Of a stretch of 11,950 bases of DNA, positions 1,974-11,601 are shown in pieces (positions within the stretch are counted from its first letter, which is position 1; every line of letters begins with the position of its first letter). A program made the position numbers and the translations under genes. Under the pieces are notes generated by a model. That model saw only the letters and a program-made list of their open reading frames with translations. It was not told where the DNA came from and ran no database searches. The DNA is from Proteiniphilum sp. (GTDB taxonomy: Bacteria > Bacteroidota > Bacteroidia > Bacteroidales > Dysgonomonadaceae): positions 1-11,950 of the forward strand of contig JAAYFB010000367.1 of assembly GCA_012728465.1 (NCBI GenBank), written 5' to 3'.

Positions 1974-2876
1974 TTAATTTCCACCTCTATTTCTTGGGTG
2001 ATGTTCAATTATCTCCTGTCTCAAAAACTGAGTGTCTAAATGTGTATATATTTCTGTAGTTGATATTTTTTCATGTCCCATCATCTCTTGAATTACTCTT
2101 ATATTGGCCCCTCTTTCTAATAGATGAGTGGCAAATGAGTGCCTCAACACATGAGGACTTATTTCTTTTTCTATTCCTGCTTCTTCGCTATACTTTCTTA
2201 CGTAGTGAAAGATAGTGATCCTTGATATTGCTGTTCCTCTTGCACTTAAAAACAAAACATCTTCATTCCCCTTTTTTACATTTATTTTTGCACGATAATG
2301 AAGATAGTTCTCTATCTTTTGAATTGCAATTTCCGAAATTGGAACTAAACGCTGTTTATTACCTTTACCCCTAACTCGTATAAATCCTTCCTTGAAAAAT
2401 AAGTCGCTAAATTTCAGATTGACTAGTTCTGAAACTCTTAAACCGCAGCTATATAATGTTTCGATAACAGCATAATTCCTAGTACCTTCGGGAGTAGATA
2501 CATCTATTACTTCAAGTATTGAGTCAATCTCTTCGATTGATAATGTAACGGGCAGCTTTAATCCAACTTGTGGAGAGTCTATCAATGCTGTCGGATTAAT
2601 ATCAATGTAACCATCTAGCTCCAGATAATTAAAAAATGATTTCAGACCTGACAATATTCGAGCAATAGACCGTGCTACTATCTTTTGATCATAAAGATCA
2701 GCTAAAAGATTCTCTATGTGTTCAGTTTTAATATCTTTAAGTGCAAGATTATTTTTTTCAAGATAAATAGAAAGCTTTTTCAAATCTCGCATATACGCAT
2801 CTATAGTATTTGCAGATAAACCTCTCTCCATCAACAAATATTGCTTATACTTATATATTGGAGAATCTAACTTCAT
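1974..2876 (-). CDS. xerD: Tyrosine site-specific recombinase XerD
   Basis: XerD acts with a partner Xer recombinase at the dif site to resolve chromosome dimers at division. The 300-residue protein has an N-terminal SAM-like core-binding domain (about 6-90) and a catalytic domain (about 108-290). The catalytic set is complete: R147 in GLRVSEL, K171 in GKGNKQR, H242 and R245 in PHVLRHSFATH, H268 in MMGHEK and nucleophile Y277 in IYTHL. The C-terminal RQEIIEHHPR resembles the HHPRA end of E. coli XerD, which favours XerD over XerC or an integron or phage integrase; there are no phage genes nearby. Its start codon overlaps the stop of the upstream kinase as ATGA, so translation is probably coupled to the kinase. 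The downstream gene, dnaN, seems to have its own promoter. Confidence 0.93.
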   Translation of the reverse strand: MKLDSPIYKYKQYLLMERGLSANTIDAYMRDLKKLSIYLEKNNLALKDIKTEHIENLLADLYDQKIVARSIARILSGLKSFFNYLELDGYIDINPTALIDSPQVGLKLPVTLSIEEIDSILEVIDVSTPEGTRNYAVIETLYSCGLRVSELVNLKFSDLFFKEGFIRVRGKGNKQRLVPISEIAIQKIENYLHYRAKINVKKGNEDVLFLSARGTAISRITIFHYVRKYSEEAGIEKEISPHVLRHSFATHLLERGANIRVIQEMMGHEKISTTEIYTHLDTQFLRQEIIEHHPRNRGGN

Positions 2877-5371
2877 ATTTCATCCCTAAATATCTGGTCA
2901 GACAGATTGTCTGATTGTTCTATATAAAAATTTATTTTATTTATCATACTACTCAATTGTTCTTTTGTAATCTCTCCCCTTTTTTCTAAAACAATCAAGG
3001 AAGAAACGACATCATTATCTCCAATCATTTTAAAGAGAGGCAACATTTTATGTGCTAAATTAGAAGTGATTTTTACATCTGAAATGTTATCTCCTTTAAG
3101 ATATTCATTCATAGATCTGCATTCTTTTGAGAATGATTGTAAGATAGCCTTTGAACTCTCTTTATCATCCTTTACATATGAGATTAGAGACTCCACACCT
3201 TTTGGTTTATCTAGCTGATTTAGCGATGATTGGTTATTATATTGAATATATTTTTCTATTGTATCAAACAACTCACTAGATGTAAAAGGTTTATTTAATA
3301 ATCCAGAAAATCCGGATAATTTATACTCATGCAATTCTATTTCGGATGTGGCCGTTAGAGCAATTATTGGCGTCGGCTTGTGTTTAAGAACACCAGAATC
3401 AATTATATTCTTTATTAGAGCAAAACCATTAATTTCTGGCATCTGTATATCTAAAAATATTAAATCAAATGACTCTTTCTTAAGAATATCAACAACTTTG
3501 TTTGGATTAGTCTCAGAAATCACACTAATACCTTGTGCCTTAATCATCTCAGAAACCATTAATTGCTGTATAGCGTCATCATCCACTAATAGGATAGTTA
3601 TTTTTTTATTTCTACAAATGCCTTTGTCTATTTCGATAGATGATTCTTTTGGTAATACAGTATCCGAATAGTGCATAGGCAATTCTACAAAAAACTCAGT
3701 TCCAACACCCTTTTCAGAAACAAAACTAATTTTACCACCTAATTGCTCTACCAATCCTTTAGTGATAGCCATTCCTAATCCTGTTCCATCTTCATGATGT
3801 TCTATTTTATCCATCTTTATTCGCTCAAATTCTTCAAAAACAAGTCCTTTATCTTCATCAGAAATTCCTACTCCCGTGTCTTTTACTGATAATTTAAGCG
3901 TTTTATCCATTGTATCAAAATCAACACTAACAACCACTTCACCATCAAATGTATATTTTATGGCATTAGATATTACGTTAGAATATATTTCTCTAATCAT
4001 CAATGGATCACCCAAAGCTAACACACCTTCGGGTACTTTATTAATAACATTATACCCTAGTTCTTTTTTATATGCTAATGGCTCGAAGCTCTCTGTTGTG
4101 TTATCTATAAGTTCTCTAAGAGATATCTGCATATCATTTTTCCTCCAAGTTCCCGATTCAATTCTTTGATAATCTAACAAGTTGGAAACAAGTTGCAAAA
4201 CATGTTCGCTTGACTTCTTCATATTTATCAGATATGTATCATGAGAGTCTTTATTTAAGCCTGACTGTATCAACTCAATATATCCCAAAATAGAACTCAT
4301 TGGTGCTTTAATGTCATGTGATATTGACAACATTAATTTTTCTCTTGACTGTAATAGTTTTTTAATCCTTGTATTTGACTCTTCTAGCTTTCGCTTATAG
4401 CTCTGGCTTCTGTTTATATCTAAAACAAATAAAAATCCAAACAAAACAGCAATACTAACAGCAATTATTGATACCCAAAACACGGTATCATATGATCTAC
4501 TCAAGGTAGTCTCTTTTTCTTCAACCAATTTCAAAGCCTTCTCACTCTCCTCCAGCTCAATAAACTTCAACAGCTCATCCACCCTCTTTGTTAATGTCTC
4601 ATTTGTTTTACTCATAATGGACTGCCTTTCATATAGTGCTGCTTGAAATTTGCGTTGATTCTCTAGATTCAATCGCTCTGTTTGTCTAACCATATTTACA
4701 ATCGTGTCAACTACAAGATTATATTCTTTTTCCATAGCTGACGATTGACGCTTCTCTACAATAACAGTAGAGTCCTGCTTACCGGTAAAAGCATCGCCTA
4801 ATCTTCGTAATAAGCCTTTCTTTTCTCTCTTTATTACTGTAGTGTCGGCATTAGCAGATTTACCGCCATCTGTCACACCATCTTTAATGTATTTTGATGC
4901 ATTTGCAGTTTTAGGAGTATAGGTACTACTTGTCTCACGAACAATGGAGGGTGACTGCCGCAACGAGTCCATCAACTCAAACACATGTATTAAATTATCT
5001 TCTTTTCTATCCAGTAATACATCTATTGTGTCAAGTTGAGAAATACGAGCTGTATCCCCAGCAAGCAGTTTTAAACTATCAAGCCTAAGGGTAACACTCG
5101 ATCTGATGTTGTGAAATGAATTAATATACTTCTCTGTGCTTTCAAAAGTCAATAAATTATTTGAAGCTTCTACCTCATATAATTGATTAATAATATTACT
5201 CACAATCAACAACTCTTGCCTATCCTCACTCCTTATTCTCTTCTCGGAGAAATCTACAAGATTTTTATATATTGCGAATAACCCAATCAGCATAATCACA
5301 ACCAGTAGCACATATCCACCGATTACAATTTGCTTTCCCACTGATTTGGACTCTATATTTTTTATATTCAT
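2873..5371 (-). CDS. Hybrid sensor histidine kinase with receiver and C-terminal Hpt domains
   Basis: An 832-residue inner-membrane phosphorelay kinase. Visible in order: transmembrane helix about 14-36; an extracytoplasmic region about 38-296 ending in a predicted coiled coil (225-292); a second transmembrane helix about 297-317; HisKA with H352 in SISHDIKAP; HATPase with the N box (N465 and N469), G1 box KDTGVGIS (497-504) and G2 box DGTGLGM (528-534); a receiver domain (about 591-707) with acidic D597/D598, phospho-acceptor D641 in FLDIQMP, T673 and K694; and an Hpt-like domain (about 720-820) with H774 in NLAHKMLPLF. No HAMP domain is seen. The order is BarA-like, so phosphate should pass H352 to D641 to H774, then to D52 of the response regulator encoded 27 bp upstream. 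The signal is unknown. Residues 140-215 form a Ser/Thr- and Lys-rich stretch that may be disordered. The stop overlaps the xerD start. Confidence 0.93.
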   Translation of the reverse strand: MNIKNIESKSVGKQIVIGGYVLLVVIMLIGLFAIYKNLVDFSEKRIRSEDRQELLIVSNIINQLYEVEASNNLLTFESTEKYINSFHNIRSSVTLRLDSLKLLAGDTARISQLDTIDVLLDRKEDNLIHVFELMDSLRQSPSIVRETSSTYTPKTANASKYIKDGVTDGGKSANADTTVIKREKKGLLRRLGDAFTGKQDSTVIVEKRQSSAMEKEYNLVVDTIVNMVRQTERLNLENQRKFQAALYERQSIMSKTNETLTKRVDELLKFIELEESEKALKLVEEKETTLSRSYDTVFWVSIIAVSIAVLFGFLFVLDINRSQSYKRKLEESNTRIKKLLQSREKLMLSISHDIKAPMSSILGYIELIQSGLNKDSHDTYLINMKKSSEHVLQLVSNLLDYQRIESGTWRKNDMQISLRELIDNTTESFEPLAYKKELGYNVINKVPEGVLALGDPLMIREIYSNVISNAIKYTFDGEVVVSVDFDTMDKTLKLSVKDTGVGISDEDKGLVFEEFERIKMDKIEHHEDGTGLGMAITKGLVEQLGGKISFVSEKGVGTEFFVELPMHYSDTVLPKESSIEIDKGICRNKKITILLVDDDAIQQLMVSEMIKAQGISVISETNPNKVVDILKKESFDLIFLDIQMPEINGFALIKNIIDSGVLKHKPTPIIALTATSEIELHEYKLSGFSGLLNKPFTSSELFDTIEKYIQYNNQSSLNQLDKPKGVESLISYVKDDKESSKAILQSFSKECRSMNEYLKGDNISDVKITSNLAHKMLPLFKMIGDNDVVSSLIVLEKRGEITKEQLSSMINKINFYIEQSDNLSDQIFRDEI

Positions 5372-5398: not shown

Positions 5399-6682
5399 CT
5401 ATTGTATTTCATATAGTCTAATCTTATTATAAAGTGTTTTTCTATCAATATTTAACAATGAAGCTGCTAATGTTTTATTTCCCTTAGATATTTGCAATGC
5501 TTCAGCAATTTTCTTTCTCTCAAAATTTTCTTTTCTAAAGCTGTCCAATGATTCTTCTTCTCCTGTTGAATTTAAATTTATCTCAACAAGGGCCTCCTCG
5601 CTAACAATATAGGGGATTATATCTTTAGAAATAATATCTTTTTCAGACAAAATAACCATTTTGAAAACAAGGTTTTTTAGTTCTTGTATATTGCCCTTCC
5701 AACTTTGTTCAAACAACACCTCATATACCTCAGGCTCTATCTTAGAAATATTTTTATTCAATTCTTTATTTGCCATTTTTAAAAAGAACTCAGTATAAGA
5801 AACTATTTCATCCCTTTTGCCTTCAAGGTTTGGAAGTTCTATAAAAGACTGCAAAAGTATCTCCGAAAGCTTAGGAATAAAGCTTTCTTTTATCTGCTCT
5901 TGTGTATAAGTAGTAGCAATTACTATTTGAGTATAATCGTCATTCTTACTTTGCTTTGTTAATGCACGTATTAATGATGTTTGAAAATTAATATCTATTT
6001 TTCTAAAACCTTTGATATACAATACTCCACCTTTTGCACTATCCATATAGTTAGAAAACAGAATATCCTCATCATCTCCCATTTTGGAATTATCCACACC
6101 ATTTTGATTCAAATCAAAAACAACAAAGGGGGCCCTTCCATGAGTTCGTTTAATATAGATAAACTTTGCCGCAGTGGTCTTACCAGTCCCTTCATTACCA
6201 ATAACGAGCAGATGAGAATTATCTCTAATAACATCTATTATTTTTTCGTGAATGCTCTCATTCTCTGAAAATCTTGAACTTATATAGTATTGTTGCAAGT
6301 CTCGTGACTGCTTCTCTATCTTTCTCTCTCTAAAAGCAGCATCTAATTTCTGAAAAAGCATTTCAGCATCTATGGGTTTAGATATATAATCTACGGCACC
6401 CATCTTCATTGCTTCAACTGCAGACTCAATATCAGCAAAACTAGTCATCATCATAACCTGAATGTCACTATCATACTTCTGTATCCATGATAAAAGCGAA
6501 AAACCATCAACCTCGGGCATAACAATATCCGATAGAATTAAGTCGTATGCATCATCCTTCACTTTCTTGATAGCTTCTGAAACACTAGATGCTGTGTCAA
6601 CATCATAGTTATTCTTTATAAGCCACGACTTCAACATCAAGCAGATGGTTACATTATCATCAACAACTAATATCTTCTTCAT
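5399..6682 (-). CDS. NtrC-family response regulator with degenerate AAA+ domain (probably sigma-54 independent)
   Basis: A 427-residue cytoplasmic transcription regulator with three domains. The receiver (1-120) is complete: D8, D9, phospho-acceptor D52 in LSDIVMP, T80 and K102. The C-terminal Fis-type helix-turn-helix (about 380-427, GNKTLAASLLNIDRKTLYNK) looks intact. The central domain (about 135-360) is clearly derived from sigma-54 activators and keeps Walker A GNEGTGKT (162-169). However, the GAFTGA loop is deleted, the Walker B LFLDE position reads LYIKG (221-225), the arginine-finger segment FRxDLYYRL reads FIPKLSEILL, and GNVREL reads GNIQEL (Q333 for the sensor II Arg). It can probably bind a nucleotide but not hydrolyse it or open a sigma-54 complex. 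It likely acts as a phosphorylation-controlled DNA-binding protein paired with the kinase that follows 27 bp later. Automatic annotation would probably call it a sigma-54-dependent regulator. Confidence 0.9.
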   Translation of the reverse strand: MKKILVVDDNVTICLMLKSWLIKNNYDVDTASSVSEAIKKVKDDAYDLILSDIVMPEVDGFSLLSWIQKYDSDIQVMMMTSFADIESAVEAMKMGAVDYISKPIDAEMLFQKLDAAFRERKIEKQSRDLQQYYISSRFSENESIHEKIIDVIRDNSHLLVIGNEGTGKTTAAKFIYIKRTHGRAPFVVFDLNQNGVDNSKMGDDEDILFSNYMDSAKGGVLYIKGFRKIDINFQTSLIRALTKQSKNDDYTQIVIATTYTQEQIKESFIPKLSEILLQSFIELPNLEGKRDEIVSYTEFFLKMANKELNKNISKIEPEVYEVLFEQSWKGNIQELKNLVFKMVILSEKDIISKDIIPYIVSEEALVEINLNSTGEEESLDSFRKENFERKKIAEALQISKGNKTLAASLLNIDRKTLYNKIRLYEIQ

Positions 6683-6709: not shown

Positions 6710-7054
6710 CTATTCCTTAATCCCCTCCTTCTTCAACTCTTTAGATATAAATATTGAAGCATATAACAATAGTATAGTTCCAATAAACATAGCTAATGCC
6801 CACAAATTATTGAAAGTGAACATAAAATAGGCCGCTACAATAATAAATATACACGACATTATCTGCATATTAAACAACCGCTTTCCTCGAATGCTATTTC
6901 CGGGATAGGGAGTTGCCAATGTGATACCTGTAAATATTGCCACGGATACAATCATAATCCAAGACGATATTTTAGGTTCAGACAAATACAGGACTGCTGA
7001 AGCTAAAATTAGCATTGCTGATACTTTATAAAACTTATCTTTTAGTTTGCGCAT
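6710..7054 (-). CDS. Small four-helix membrane protein of unknown function
   Basis: I do not recognise a named family. The 114-residue protein has four hydrophobic stretches (about 10-25, 31-47, 62-80 and 83-103), separated by a polar loop at 48-61 containing PYPGNSIRGKRLFN. It starts with basic residues (MRKLKDKFYK) and ends with a charged tail (KELKKEGIKE), so both termini are probably cytoplasmic. No catalytic motif or signal peptide is visible. It lies 74 bp after the DivIC-like gene and 27 bp before the response regulator on the same strand, so it is probably in the same operon. A role as a division accessory or as a partner of the sensor kinase is only inference from position. Codon use and composition resemble the neighbours. 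Confidence 0.75.
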   Translation of the reverse strand: MRKLKDKFYKVSAMLILASAVLYLSEPKISSWIMIVSVAIFTGITLATPYPGNSIRGKRLFNMQIMSCIFIIVAAYFMFTFNNLWALAMFIGTILLLYASIFISKELKKEGIKE

Positions 7055-7128: not shown

Positions 7129-7437
7129 CTATTCAATGATAAATACTTCTTCATTTTTTCTTTTCATCAAATAATTTTCTCTAGCGTATTTCTCTAAATT
7201 ATCAAGGCTAGACTGCAATTCATCTAACTTAGCTTTATCAAGCTCTGTTTGATTGCGATAATATTCGATTTGAGTTTTCAAATCTTTTATTTCTCTCGAA
7301 TACTTCATCCTTTTGAATAGACTACTATCGCTAAAAAAAAACAGCATAGCAATAAGGGCTAATAGCACCGTTATCTGATAAACAGAAAGCCCCATGTAGC
7401 GTCGCTTAAATCTATTTCTTAAGTTGATAAATCGCAT
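7129..7437 (-). CDS. DivIC/FtsB-family septum formation initiator
   Basis: A small bitopic division protein of the FtsB/DivIC family, which joins FtsL- and FtsQ/DivIB-type proteins in the divisome. The 102 residues show a short basic cytoplasmic end (1-15), one transmembrane helix (about 19-36), an extracytoplasmic coiled coil (about 43-82) and the conserved tail LEKYARENYLMKRKNEEVF (81-99). This tail is the diagnostic part of the DivIC/septum initiator family. Length is normal. It is the first gene of the leftward cluster and has a good Bacteroidetes promoter 23-53 bp before its ATG. The following genes are a small membrane protein, then the two-component pair and xerD. FtsL-like proteins have a similar layout, but the tail motif favours FtsB/DivIC. 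Confidence 0.88.
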   Translation of the reverse strand: MRFINLRNRFKRRYMGLSVYQITVLLALIAMLFFFSDSSLFKRMKYSREIKDLKTQIEYYRNQTELDKAKLDELQSSLDNLEKYARENYLMKRKNEEVFIIE

Positions 7438-7459
7438 AAATACTGTTGATTTTAAATCA

Positions 7460-7490
7460 CAAATTTAATCTAAATTTCATTGTCAATCAA
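7460..7490 (-). promoter_or_regulatory. Probable promoter of the division/two-component/xerD operon
   Basis: On the minus strand, TAAATTTG (7460-7467) fully matches the Bacteroidetes -7 box TAnnTTTG. A TTG (7488-7490) lies 20 bp upstream, a suitable place for the -33 element. The predicted transcript starts about 15 nt before the DivIC-like ATG. This is the best-formed promoter in the window and probably drives the genes down to xerD. Confidence 0.6.
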
Positions 7491-7531
7491 GATACTCATC
7501 AAATAATATAGATAAATATACAAAGGCATTA

Positions 7532-7561
7532 TTGTAAATCATATTATTAAAACTATCTTTA
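7532..7561 (+). promoter_or_regulatory. Possible promoter of the C69 dipeptidase gene
   Basis: TATCTTTA (7554-7561) matches seven of eight positions of the Bacteroidetes -7 box (final G replaced by A). A TTG (7532-7534) lies 19 bp upstream. Transcription would start about 15 nt before the ATG at 7584. Together with the opposite promoter at 7460-7490 it makes the 146-bp gap a divergent promoter region. Confidence 0.4.
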
Positions 7562-7583
7562 TGCTTTATAAACTTTTAATTTA

Positions 7584-9233
7584 ATGAATAAAATGATAAG
7601 AACATTTATTATTACATTGACTCTATTACTTACTGTTTCTTTAGCACATCCTTGCACCAATTTTCTTATTGGAAAGAAAGCTACGACGGATGGCTCCACA
7701 CTCATCTCCTACTCGGCCGACTCATACAATCTGTATGGCGAACTATACCACTGGCCCGCAGCCACACATCAGCCTGGCACGATGTTGAAAATTTATGAAT
7801 GGGATTCGGGCAAGTACCTTGGTGAAATTCCTCAAGCTACGCAAACATACAATGTGATTGGCAACATGAATGAACACCAACTAGCCATTGGTGAAACCAC
7901 CTTTGGCGGGCGACCTGAACTGCAAGACACAAATGGCATTATGGACTATGGAAGCCTAATTTACACAACACTTCAAAGAGCCAAAAATGCTCGTGAAGCA
8001 ATACATACAATGACTAGCTTAGTAGCAGAGCATGGATACTACAGTAGTGGTGAATCATTCTCTATTGCCGACCCTAATGAAGTGTGGGTAATGGAAATGA
8101 TAGGAAAAGGGGTAGGAAATAAAGGTGCTGTGTGGGTAGCAGTACGTATCCCTGACGATTGTGTGTCGGCTCATGCCAATCAAGCAAGAATACAACAATT
8201 TCCACTTAACGACCCAGATAATTGCATATATTCACCTGACGTAATATCCTTTGCAAAAGAAAAAGGCTACTACAAAGGAAAAGATAAAGACTTTAGTTTT
8301 GCTCAAGCATATGCACCACTCGACTTTGGAGCACTTCGCTTTTGCGAAGCACGCGTGTGGTCGTTTTTCAATCGTGTAAATAGTAACATGGGACAATATG
8401 TAACATATGCACAAGGCAAAACCACAGAACCCATGCCTCTATATATTAAACCCGACAAAAAGCTGAGCACAAGAGATATACAACACCTCATGCGCGACCA
8501 CTATGAGGACACAGAACTAGATTGGAGATATGACCTTGGTGCTGGACCATTTAATTCACCATACCGCTGGTCGCCACTTACTTATGAAGTAGATTCTGTA
8601 GCTTACTGCAACGAACGCCCAATAGCCACACAACAAACAGCTTTCTCGTTTGTAGCTCAAATGCGCTCTTGGCTCCCCAATGCCGTGGGAGGTATATTAT
8701 GGTTTGGAATTGATGACGCAGCACATACTGTTTACTACCCATTTTATTGCGGACACACACAAGTGCCACACGAAATGGAAGTAGGCAATGGTGACTTACT
8801 TACATACTCGGAAACTTCTGCATTTTGGACACATAACATAGTCTCTAATATGGTTTACAACAGATATAGCGATAAAGTAAAAGACGTGATAAAGGTTCAA
8901 AAAGAAATTGAGGACAGTATCGAGGTTGCAATACCTGAGGTTGAAGAATTTGCACTTGATATTTTTAAAGCCTCCGAAGAGGATGCAATAAAATATCTAA
9001 CCAATGTTACAAACAAATTAGTGGAAGTGGGAATGAAGGAATGGAAAAAACTTGGACAATATCTACTAGTGAAATATGTAGATGGCGTAGTGAAACCCGA
9101 AGAAAATGGACAGTTTAAGCGAAATGATCACGGACAACCTGCTTCCCCAATCAGAACAGGTTACTCTAACGAGTTTTACAAAAAAGTGATCGAACAAACG
9201 GGCGACAAATACAAAGTATTACCTGTTGAATAA
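7584..9233 (+). CDS. Secreted C69-family dipeptidase (Ntn hydrolase)
   Basis: A 549-residue peptidase of family C69, which hydrolyses dipeptides with an N-terminal nucleophilic cysteine. The first 20 residues are a signal-like hydrophobic segment (MNKMIRTFIITLTLLLTVSL), followed by AHPC; C24 opens the family's conserved CTNFLIGKKATTDGSTLIS motif and is the expected nucleophile after processing. The sequence before C24 (AHPC) is a poor lipobox because of the Pro, so it is probably not a lipoprotein. The protein should act in the periplasm or outside the cell in peptide nutrition. Length is normal for the Bacteroidetes members. A second ATG at 7593 (residue 4) is possible. The gene stands alone, with promoter-like sequence upstream and a 151-bp gap behind it. 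Its early part is richer in GC than the flanking genes. The exact substrate cannot be read from the sequence. Confidence 0.9.
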   Translation: MNKMIRTFIITLTLLLTVSLAHPCTNFLIGKKATTDGSTLISYSADSYNLYGELYHWPAATHQPGTMLKIYEWDSGKYLGEIPQATQTYNVIGNMNEHQLAIGETTFGGRPELQDTNGIMDYGSLIYTTLQRAKNAREAIHTMTSLVAEHGYYSSGESFSIADPNEVWVMEMIGKGVGNKGAVWVAVRIPDDCVSAHANQARIQQFPLNDPDNCIYSPDVISFAKEKGYYKGKDKDFSFAQAYAPLDFGALRFCEARVWSFFNRVNSNMGQYVTYAQGKTTEPMPLYIKPDKKLSTRDIQHLMRDHYEDTELDWRYDLGAGPFNSPYRWSPLTYEVDSVAYCNERPIATQQTAFSFVAQMRSWLPNAVGGILWFGIDDAAHTVYYPFYCGHTQVPHEMEVGNGDLLTYSETSAFWTHNIVSNMVYNRYSDKVKDVIKVQKEIEDSIEVAIPEVEEFALDIFKASEEDAIKYLTNVTNKLVEVGMKEWKKLGQYLLVKYVDGVVKPEENGQFKRNDHGQPASPIRTGYSNEFYKKVIEQTGDKYKVLPVE

Positions 9234-9253
9234 TTAATGATAGATTTTTGTTG

Positions 9254-9261
9254 TATTTTTG
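9254..9261 (+). promoter_or_regulatory. Possible promoter of the phosphohexomutase-mgsA operon
   Basis: TATTTTTG matches the Bacteroidetes -7 box TAnnTTTG, but no TTG lies at the usual -33 distance (the nearest is 25 bp upstream), and it starts only 20 bp after the dipeptidase stop. A leader of about 115 nt would result. The rest of the gap (9234-9384) shows no recognised riboswitch or strong terminator. Confidence 0.35.
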
Positions 9262-9384
9262 AGTCCATTTTATAACAAAATAGCACCAAAGCATTAAAAA
9301 ATAAACGTAAAACATTATAATACAAATGATTGTTGTTTTAATGCCAGATGCTTAGTAGTAAAAATAACAAAACATATATATCTT

Positions 9385-11136
9385 ATGGATAACGAAACAT
9401 TGCTAAATCAAGTAACTAACAAAGCCAAAGCATGGCTAGAAGGAAGTTACAACGAAGAGACTAAAAATGAAGTTAGAGCTATGCTCAACAACGAAGACAA
9501 AAGTCAACTTATTGATGCCTTCTACAAAGACTTAGAGTTTGGCACAGGTGGACTTAGAGGCATAATGGGTGCTGGAAGCAATAGAATGAATATTTATACT
9601 GTTGGTGCGGCTACTCAGGGATTATCTAACTATCTATTAGAAGAGTTTGCAGATCTTGAACAAATAAAAGTAGTAATTGGTCACGACTGTCGTAATAATA
9701 GCAGAATGTTTGCTAACATATCAGCTGATATATTTTCAGCCAATGGCATAAAAGTATATCTTTTTGAAGACCTGCGTCCTACTCCTGAAGTATCTTATGC
9801 CATTCGCAAACTTGGTTGTCAAAGTGGTATTATGATTACTGCATCTCACAATCCCAAGGAGTACAACGGTTACAAAGCATATTGGGACGATGGTGCACAA
9901 GTATTGGGACCACACGATAAAAATATTATTGCTGAAGTAAATAGAGTTTCTTCAATAGATGATATCAAATTTGAAGGGAATAAGGATTTAATCGAAATAA
10001 TTGGTAGCGATCTAGACAAGGCTTTTATCAAAGAAGTGGAAAGTTTTGTTTTAGCTCCCGAATCTATCGCAAATCAACATGATCTTAAGATTGTTTATAC
10101 CCCAATTCATGGCACGGGTATTAAGATTATACCTGATACATTACGTAAAATAGGTTTTACTAATATAATAGACGTACCAGAGCAAAACGTGATTAGTGGA
10201 AATTTTCCAACTGTAGTATCGCCCAATCCAGAAGAACCTGCAGCACTAGACTTAGCCATCAAAAAGGCAATCGAAACAGATGCAGACATAGTATTGGCTA
10301 CTGACCCTGATGCTGATAGAATTGGAGCTGCTATTCGTGACGATAATGGAGAATTTTTCCTTCTTAATGGTAATCAAATAATGCTTGTGCTTACTTACTA
10401 CTTGATTACACAACGAAAGGCTAAAGGATTACTAACAGGAAAAGAATATGTTGTAAAAACTATTGTTACCACAGAGCTAATCAAGGACATTGCCGACAAA
10501 AATGGTGTAGAAATGTTTGACTGCTACACTGGATTTAAATGGATTGCACAGATTATTCGTAATAATGAAGGCAAAAAGAAATACATTGGAGGAGGTGAAG
10601 AGAGCTTTGGATTCTTAGCTTCCGACTTTGTTAGAGATAAAGACTCTGTATCGGCTTGCACCCTATTTGCAGAAATAGCTGCTTGGGCTAAAGATAATGG
10701 CAAAACAGTTTATCAAGTTCTGCAAGACATTTATATTGAATATGGATTCTCGAAAGAAGTTAATATCTCACTTGTACGCAAAGGAAAAGATGGTGCTGAT
10801 GAAATTGAAGCTATGATGAAAAATTTCAGAACTAACCCTGTAAAAGAACTAGCTGGTTCACCAGTTGTTCTATCAAAGGACTTTGCAAAACTTGAGAGCT
10901 ACGATTTCAACACAAATGAAGTGGTAACTCTAGAGATGCCTACAACATCTAACGTATTACAATACTTTACCGAAGATGGCACTAAAGTATCTATACGTCC
11001 TTCGGGAACAGAGCCAAAAATTAAGTTCTACATCGAAGTAAGAGGCTCTAAAGTGTCGTCGGCAGAAGAAATTGCAAAGAACGAAGCAGAGGTGGATGTA
11101 AAAGTAAGTGCAATAAAAAAATATTTTGGACTATAA
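9385..11136 (+). CDS. Phospho-sugar mutase (phosphoglucomutase/phosphomannomutase family)
   Basis: A 583-residue cytoplasmic alpha-D-phosphohexomutase that moves a phosphate between C1 and C6 of a hexose, most likely glucose 1-phosphate and glucose 6-phosphate. All four family sites are present in order: the active-site serine S154 in TASHNPKEYNGYK; the metal-binding loop TDPDADR with D307, D309 and D311; the sugar-binding loop GGGEESFG (402-409); and the phosphate-binding loop RPSGTEPKIK (538-547). FGTGGLRG (52-59) is the usual N-terminal arginine motif. The length fits the long bacterial class (about 580 residues, as in B. subtilis PgcA), rather than the roughly 450-residue AlgC/GlmM types. 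Glucose versus mannose preference cannot be settled by these motifs. mgsA follows after 6 bp, so they are probably co-transcribed. Confidence 0.93.
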   Translation: MDNETLLNQVTNKAKAWLEGSYNEETKNEVRAMLNNEDKSQLIDAFYKDLEFGTGGLRGIMGAGSNRMNIYTVGAATQGLSNYLLEEFADLEQIKVVIGHDCRNNSRMFANISADIFSANGIKVYLFEDLRPTPEVSYAIRKLGCQSGIMITASHNPKEYNGYKAYWDDGAQVLGPHDKNIIAEVNRVSSIDDIKFEGNKDLIEIIGSDLDKAFIKEVESFVLAPESIANQHDLKIVYTPIHGTGIKIIPDTLRKIGFTNIIDVPEQNVISGNFPTVVSPNPEEPAALDLAIKKAIETDADIVLATDPDADRIGAAIRDDNGEFFLLNGNQIMLVLTYYLITQRKAKGLLTGKEYVVKTIVTTELIKDIADKNGVEMFDCYTGFKWIAQIIRNNEGKKKYIGGGEESFGFLASDFVRDKDSVSACTLFAEIAAWAKDNGKTVYQVLQDIYIEYGFSKEVNISLVRKGKDGADEIEAMMKNFRTNPVKELAGSPVVLSKDFAKLESYDFNTNEVVTLEMPTTSNVLQYFTEDGTKVSIRPSGTEPKIKFYIEVRGSKVSSAEEIAKNEAEVDVKVSAIKKYFGL

Positions 11137-11142
11137 TAGATT

Positions 11143-11601
11143 ATGTATTCAATGAATAAAAAACTAACAATTGCTCTCGTGGCTCACGATCACAGAAAGG
11201 TCGATATGGTAGATTGGGTTATTTATAACTCCGACTTTCTAGCTGAACACCACCTTGTTTGCACAGGCACAACTGGTGGATTGGTCCGTGCAGCTCTTCA
11301 AGAAGAAGGAGTCAATCCCGACATCACATGCATGAACTCGGGACCTATGGGTGGAGATGCAGAAATTGCAGCAATGGTGGTTCGTAAAGAGATTGACCTT
11401 GCCGTGTTCTTAATTGACGACCTCAACCCTCAACCACACGAGGCCGACATTATGATGCTTTTGCGACAATGCAGAGTGCACAATGTGCCAATTGCATGCA
11501 ATAGATATAGTGCTGATTTGATGATCACTAGCAACTTGTGGTATAATGAGGAATATACTCCAATGAAACCTCTTTACTCAAAGTTTGATAGAGAGGAATA
11601 A
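11143..11601 (+). CDS. mgsA: Methylglyoxal synthase
   Basis: This enzyme converts dihydroxyacetone phosphate to methylglyoxal and phosphate, an overflow bypass of lower glycolysis that frees phosphate when sugar phosphates accumulate. The 152-residue protein contains the expected sites: H15 and D16 in LVAHDH, the phosphate-binding TGTTG (41-45), catalytic D72 in SGPMGGD, D92 in LIDDLNPQ, and H99 and D102 in PHEADI. E. coli MgsA is also 152 residues and is colinear at these positions. Two starts are possible: the ATG at 11143 or the ATG at 11152 (MNKKLTIALVAHD). The second matches the shorter B. subtilis form, and neither has a clear ribosome-binding site. It is the second gene of a pair with the phosphohexomutase and ends 30 bp before a strong terminator. 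Confidence 0.95.
   Translation: MYSMNKKLTIALVAHDHRKVDMVDWVIYNSDFLAEHHLVCTGTTGGLVRAALQEEGVNPDITCMNSGPMGGDAEIAAMVVRKEIDLAVFLIDDLNPQPHEADIMMLLRQCRVHNVPIACNRYSADLMITSNLWYNEEYTPMKPLYSKFDREE

Follow-up and report, generated by a model that had tools for sequence, protein, structure and literature searches.

The window analysed here is a stretch of 11,950 nucleotides from Proteiniphilum sp. (contig JAAYFB010000367.1 of assembly GCA_012728465.1). On its minus strand an uninterrupted frame (5399-6682) encodes a 427-residue response regulator of the NtrC type, which has lost the sigma-54 contact loop and the hydrolysis residues of its AAA+ core and keeps the phosphate-binding P-loop. From the observed motif losses, their conservation, the single clade of carriers, the purifying selection acting on it, the phosphorelay residues and the gene order, we consider it probable that this protein is a sigma-54-independent, phosphorelay-controlled DNA-binding regulator, whose AAA+ core does not hydrolyse ATP, perhaps still binds nucleotide or assembles, and which acts at ordinary promoters.

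Motif losses and retained residues in the AAA+ core

Pfam finds a receiver domain (REC, 101.9 bits; residues 4-113, 6344-6673), the AAA_lid_14 lid and a Fis-type helix-turn-helix (HTH; HTH_8, residues 385-422, 5417-5530), giving the order receiver, degenerate AAA+ domain (a pseudo-ATPase), lid and HTH. This is the architecture of bacterial enhancer-binding proteins (bEBPs). The sigma-54-activator families match weakly or partially: Sigma54_activ_2 reaches 44.7 bits and PF00158 covers residues 141-191 only. The AlphaFold2 model has a mean predicted local distance difference test score (pLDDT) of 84.7.

We scored each position in 49 genome orthologues (the window's own included), 119 database proteins (10 of them near-identical to genome rows) and 51 canonical homologues. 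The orthologues come from the 101 genomes of the window's family that were searched, where they match at E < 1e-69, the others being 41-52% identical; below them there is a sharp drop, with the next homologues at 30-36% identity. Across 393 genomes of the order, the own copy was the only match with an E value below 3.8e-65. The database search scored 7996 candidates, 1842 of them at E < 0.001, and the best 120 of the 1842 were considered; one further analysis used 93 of 121 proteins (P0002 omitted, plus 27 others omitted for thinning). Degenerate and canonical rows (49 vs 51) were split by a phmmer score above or below 225 bits with duplicates removed, the canonical set being 51 distinct weaker-scoring homologues fetched from the family and the order. 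One row (L017, genome G006) was shortened to 287 residues by the start-codon rule and L025, L138 and L139 are incomplete, which accounts for the alignment gaps.

In this protein family the GAFTGA motif contacts sigma-54 and Walker B drives ATP hydrolysis. A sequence-only reading had proposed that Walker A is intact, that the GAFTGA segment is deleted, that Walker B Asp-Glu is replaced by Lys-Gly, that the arginine-finger segment contains no arginine and that the sensor II arginine is replaced by Gln. Every one of these motifs was found as described; the list was incomplete, however, as loop 2 is shortened and the sensor I Asn is lost as well.

Walker A (GNEGTGKT, residues 162-169, 6176-6199) carries the lysine expected of bEBPs: K168 is present in 49/49 orthologues, 119/119 database proteins and 51/51 canonical homologues, and G162, G167 and K168 are kept in 49, 49 and 49 of the 49 and in 119, 118 and 119 of the 119. 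The following residue, 169, varies freely in the degenerate clade and is Glu in 50/51 canonical homologues, while Ser170 is a new residue of the clade (46/49 and 94/119). A GAFTGA-like string, found in 50/51 canonical homologues, occurs in 0/49 and 0/119. The loop-1 region, D190 to G219 (6026-6115), measures 30 residues in the window regulator, against 39 in 51/51 canonical homologues, and ranges from 25 to 36 within the degenerate clade; the loop-2 region (residues 234-252, 5927-5983) measures 19, against 27.

The former Walker B reads GGVLYIKGF (residues 218-226, 6005-6031), with Lys224-Gly225 where Asp-Glu is expected. The Asp at 224 is absent throughout (0/49 and 0/119 vs 51/51), and a basic residue mostly takes its place (31 Arg and 14 Lys among the 49, 55 Arg and 52 Lys among the 119); position 225 is Glu in 51/51 canonical homologues. 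Residues 266-283 (5834-5887) of the window regulator contain no arginine at all. At the first arginine finger, where canonical proteins have FRxDL, the window regulator has IPKL (residues 269-272, 5867-5878): Arg269 is found in 0/49, 0/119 and 51/51, and a new invariant Pro-Lys, P270 and K271, stands in 48/49 (one gap) and 119/119. Position 275, the second finger, is Ile in the window, and its Arg survives in 0/49 and 1/119 (51/51 canonical). Sensor I Asn, replaced by Thr258 in the window, is found in 0/49, 3/119 and 51/51. Sensor II Arg is replaced by Gln333 (GNIQEL, 5684-5686) and found in 0/49 (Q 42, K 5, two gaps), 1/119 and 51/51. Taken together, 114/119 database proteins lack every one of these residues (Walker B Asp, the two fingers, sensor I Asn, sensor II Arg), and the other five retain one each; none of the 49 orthologues has any of them, one row having gaps at the fingers and two at sensor II. 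In sharp contrast, all 51 canonical homologues from family and order keep the whole of this set together with the Walker A Lys and the Walker B Glu.

The flanking domains are intact, as the earlier reading had also held. In the receiver D8, D9, the phospho-acceptor D52, T80 and K102 are conserved, with D52 and K102 in 48/49 (the one gap being the shortened row) and 119/119, and T80 in 47/49 and 119/119. The HTH motif IDRKTLYNK is found in 46/49 degenerate orthologues and 41/51 canonical homologues.

One clade under purifying selection

In the tree of the full alignment the degenerate proteins group as a single clade (44 rows vs 59 canonical; rows shorter than 421 residues were excluded, and the 59 include one outgroup and three identical pairs). 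One clade is obtained again with the AAA+ columns removed (48 vs 51 rows), with support of 100/96. The ratio of nonsynonymous to synonymous substitution rates (dN/dS, Nei-Gojobori) over the whole regulator is 0.06-0.21 in nine chosen pairs; by part it is 0.07-0.36 for AAA+, 0.01-0.37 for the receiver and 0-0.10 for the HTH where computable, some pairs being saturated at synonymous sites (dS > 1) and the G008 pair coming from a partial frame. The degenerate clade is under purifying selection, and its new invariant residues indicate a changed rather than a lost function. The degenerate feature is real, clade-wide and selected. Motif scoring of the orthologues had been set beforehand as a test, and with 0/49 carrying intact motifs, decay of this copy alone is ruled out. 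The proposal of a repurposed regulator is supported by the shared losses, the single clade and the purifying selection.

Carriers are confined to genera g1, g2, g10, g11 and g12 of the window's family. Orthologues had been expected across Bacteroidales; they were found within this one lineage, whereas elsewhere in the order the homologues that were inspected are of the canonical type and occupy other loci. A search for orthologues by back-translated patterns in genome contigs returned three loci that match at just 25-30% and did not help. Among the database matches listed, the nearest non-identical protein is 65% identical, and the names are Proteiniphilum, Fermentimonas, Petrimonas and Lascolabacillus, which suggests Dysgonomonadaceae. 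Several database copies of the clade are named 'sigma-54-dependent transcriptional regulator', a name that is probably wrong for them.

A partner kinase within a conserved gene row

The typical gene row of the clade runs DivIC, membrane protein, response regulator, histidine kinase, XerD. In the window, all on the minus strand, it begins with a DivIC/FtsB-type septum protein recognised by Pfam (7129-7437). A 114-residue hydrophobic protein (o114, 6710-7054; no Pfam match) forms the upstream edge of the regulator-kinase pair, and a XerD-type tyrosine recombinase (1974-2876), whose start overlaps the kinase stop, forms the downstream edge. The partner is an 832-residue hybrid histidine kinase (2873-5371), for which Pfam and alignment give HisKA (H352), HATPase, a receiver (D641) and an Hpt-like tail (H774); no Pfam Hpt domain was found in it at E up to 1. 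The phospho-His, receiver Asp and Hpt-like His are kept in 33/33 carrier kinases longer than 700 residues and in 19/19 kinases of canonical pairs (one of them a duplicate, L120 and L148 being one gene).

In 39/49 carriers a distance of 3.0-5.2 kb separates the 114-residue gene from xerD on the same strand, which is space for regulator and kinase. Of the remaining carriers, two have a gap below 1.5 kb, seven have the two genes on separate contigs and one lacks one gene. The kinase follows the regulator in 35 of 40 carrier loci read with flanks (two cut by contig ends, one split); at three of the other five the contig ends first (L090, L138, L139), and G098 and G089 lack it. G089 has no kinase match at E <= 1e-40, and its receiver carries T80 to Pro and D9 to Glu. 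In G098 the kinase is gone from the locus, yet T80 and D9 are intact, so kinase loss with receiver change is no general rule. Outside the 49, G103 has the kinase without the regulator and G113 a regulator fragment without the kinase, both at contig edges.

Twelve of the 52 genomes without a strong orthologue, from genera g3, g4, g5, g8 and g9, have an empty site, with the 114-residue gene directly before xerD. The two genes are on opposite strands in 29 others, and in the last 11 they lie 5.9 kb apart (one), on different contigs (two) or one is missing (eight). On the question of a single insertion event, the XerD tree does not separate carriers from empty-site genera, with 2 changes for the carriers. 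At E <= 1e-90 the kinase has relatives in 18 of the 392 other genomes of the order, and in 17 of the 18 regions read an NtrC-type regulator is found within about 4 kb (G356 has none in its 14 kb). The origin of the pair therefore probably lies in a two-component system of the sigma-54 type. Outside the window's genome, the 18 nearest kinases are 29-34% identical and spread over several other families.

As for the surroundings, the 114-residue protein occurs in 95/101 family genomes, beside DivIC at nearly all loci read, and represents a conserved unnamed family. Within 7129-11601 of the window, the DivIC row is divergent from a C69 peptidase - phosphoglucomutase - MGS-domain protein row, an order that recurs at several empty-site loci and at the majority of carrier loci whose flanks are long enough. 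At L171-L178 (genera g6, g7, g13, g14, g15) the same junction is rearranged, the DivIC-o114 pair and xerD lying on opposite strands.

Promoters and sigma-54 in the own genome

A scan of the window for the -24/-12 consensus of sigma-54 promoters yielded 6 matches with at most 2 mismatches, vs 6.4 expected by chance. The Bacteroidota-type -7 element has the consensus TAnnTTTG, and TAAATTTG upstream of DivIC (7460-7467, minus strand) is a weak candidate for it, being one of 19 consensus matches in the window with a chance mean of 16.8.

In the window's own genome (G000) there is one match to a sigma-54 gene, and three activator domains score strongly with PF00158; of these, the two inspected keep Walker A and Walker B. 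Sigma-54 regulation thus persists there, and the regulator has left a system still in use. A canonical sister regulator is present at E <= 1e-100 in 40/49 carriers; at that threshold none was found in G000, a genome 89% complete.

Two elements were noted in other genomes. In the gap before the 114-residue gene (L095, L099, L126, L129, L130, L134, L137, L139, L144), inspection by eye of a number of g11 genomes shows TATATTTG or a close variant, resembling a promoter, with an element around CCGGTTTTGGTTGATATTTT after it; this is a candidate autoregulation site and is not evident in the window. Upstream of the canonical sister, L105-L108 share the conserved block AAAACTTAATC-N~12-AAATGTTAGGTTTCATAAAT next to an M24 peptidase gene in divergent orientation, a possible regulatory element of the canonical system.

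A proposed sigma-54-independent regulator and its alternatives

The regulator that we propose would have had a canonical sigma-54 activator as its ancestor. The adjoining hybrid kinase would very likely pass phosphate, by a His-Asp-His relay, to receiver Asp52, whose phosphorylation may alter the assembly state through receiver and AAA+ core, and the Fis-type HTH would bind dyad sites. The AAA+ domain is not expected to contact sigma-54, because the GAFTGA loop is gone and loop 2 is shortened, nor to hydrolyse ATP, because the Walker B Asp, the arginine fingers and sensors I and II are gone. The retained P-loop probably binds nucleotide or phosphate and plays a scaffolding role; magnesium is perhaps replaced by the residue, mostly basic, that occupies the Walker B Asp position. 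The protein would activate or repress promoters of the housekeeping polymerase. The clade is a natural experiment in which the contact loop and hydrolysis residues are gone and the P-loop and new invariant residues are under selection; it would reveal how an AAA+ core can be used in transcription without hydrolysis.

Several points weigh against this proposal. The residue after GK varies freely, so the P-loop may have no more than a structural role. At position 225, that of the Walker B Glu, an acid persists in 10/49 and 31/119, without the Asp, which lowers our confidence slightly. The target promoters and the sigma factor are guesses, and a dyad count over 40 carrier loci gave no convincing shared operator for the regulator, only A/T-rich dyads and elements resembling C69 or DivIC core promoters, one core-promoter-like element also being seen by eye at an empty-site locus (L160). 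The kinase can be dispensed with, since in G089 (L136), G098 (L133) and the contig-edge fragment of G113 (L163) xerD follows the regulator directly and an orthologous kinase is missing. In G008 (L092) both regulator and kinase frames are split, by decay or draft error.

It is possible, but not likely, that the P-loop is a relic, with an AAA+ core that binds no nucleotide and serves only to link subunits into dimers, which would make the protein in effect a plain receiver-HTH regulator. The loss of the P-loop's catalytic partners, the free variation at 169 and the variable length of loop 1 would suit this. Yet G162, G167 and K168 stay near-invariant in proteins that never have the Walker B Asp and almost never have the fingers, Ser170 is new and widespread, and a pure linker should have no need of the lysine.

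More doubtful is a scheme in which the P-loop, basic 224 and Pro-Lys would make a hydrolysis-free nucleotide clamp, phosphorylation would lock nucleotide-bound oligomers on ordinary promoters, and the kinase signal would be tied to cell division and chromosome resolution; the regulator is seated between a septum gene and xerD.

We regard as unlikely an anti-activator that binds the sites of its canonical sister or joins the sister's rings as a dead subunit, damping sigma-54 transcription. The HTH motif shared by degenerate and canonical proteins would fit, as would its difference from that of two other activators of the own genome (L001, L002) and the sister's presence in most carriers. However, 9/49 carriers have no sister at that threshold, four of these (G088, G089, G105, G106) being listed as 99% complete and the own genome being a further sister-less case, and the inter-subunit finger residues are gone.

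Ordinary decay, as a pseudogene or draft-assembly artefact, might be read from the split frames in G008 and from the altered receiver of kinase-less G089, but it is rejected as extremely improbable, in line with the earlier reading, by the uninterrupted frame in the window, a shared set of losses across 49 orthologues in one clade, nine pairs with dN/dS well below 1, new invariant residues and the conserved gene order.

Comparison with known systems

The known comparison family is that of the canonical NtrC/ZraR-type bEBPs, such as Aquifex aeolicus NtrC1 (1ny5, 4l4u). Compared with these, the window regulator lacks the GAFTGA loop, Walker B Asp, arginine fingers and sensors I and II, and its loop 2 is shorter. 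Because these defining features were tested and are absent, it is not classifiable as a sigma-54 activator. TyrR is a family member without GAFTGA that works with sigma-70. The window regulator shows the pattern of sigma-70-acting NtrC relatives, GAFTGA being absent with receiver and HTH kept.

The top Foldseek match, Brucella abortus NtrX (5m7n/o/p; solved with ATP and ADP according to the PDB titles), is likewise a receiver-AAA+-HTH protein with no GAFTGA in the aligned sequence. In the alignment, however, NtrX retains Walker B Asp-Glu, FREDLFHRL fingers and the sensor II Arg, which the window regulator does not. According to excerpts of PMC10274813, the NtrC proteins of Rhodobacter capsulatus and Caulobacter have GAFTGA deleted and act at sigma-70 promoters; for the former, ATP binding rather than hydrolysis is reported to be needed, and for the latter, conserved Walker A and Walker B residues are required in vivo. 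By their description in those excerpts, they resemble the window regulator as response regulators with a loop-1 deletion, and Caulobacter NtrC differs from our clade, which lacks the Walker B Asp and the fingers. The same excerpts describe Vibrio cholerae VpsR as GAFTGA-less, regulating sigma-70 promoters and not needing ATP. VpsR (7v2b) matches the window regulator in fold; its PDB title reports binding of cyclic di-GMP, and most of the receiver lies outside its best profile match, which begins at residue 97.

Among the non-degenerate sequences found, those nearest to the clade are canonical regulators from the same order, which suggests that the motifs were lost independently of the group of R. 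capsulatus NtrC, Caulobacter NtrC and VpsR. A literature search at the level of titles and abstract openings found no such protein in Bacteroidales. As far as alignment and those excerpts go, the clade goes further in loss than NtrX and Caulobacter NtrC, both of which keep Walker B. By analogy, the regulator probably works like the known sigma-70-acting NtrC relatives. GAFTGA-less relatives of this kind are already known; what is new is that so much has been lost while the P-loop stays, and that this state is fixed in a clade of Bacteroidales.
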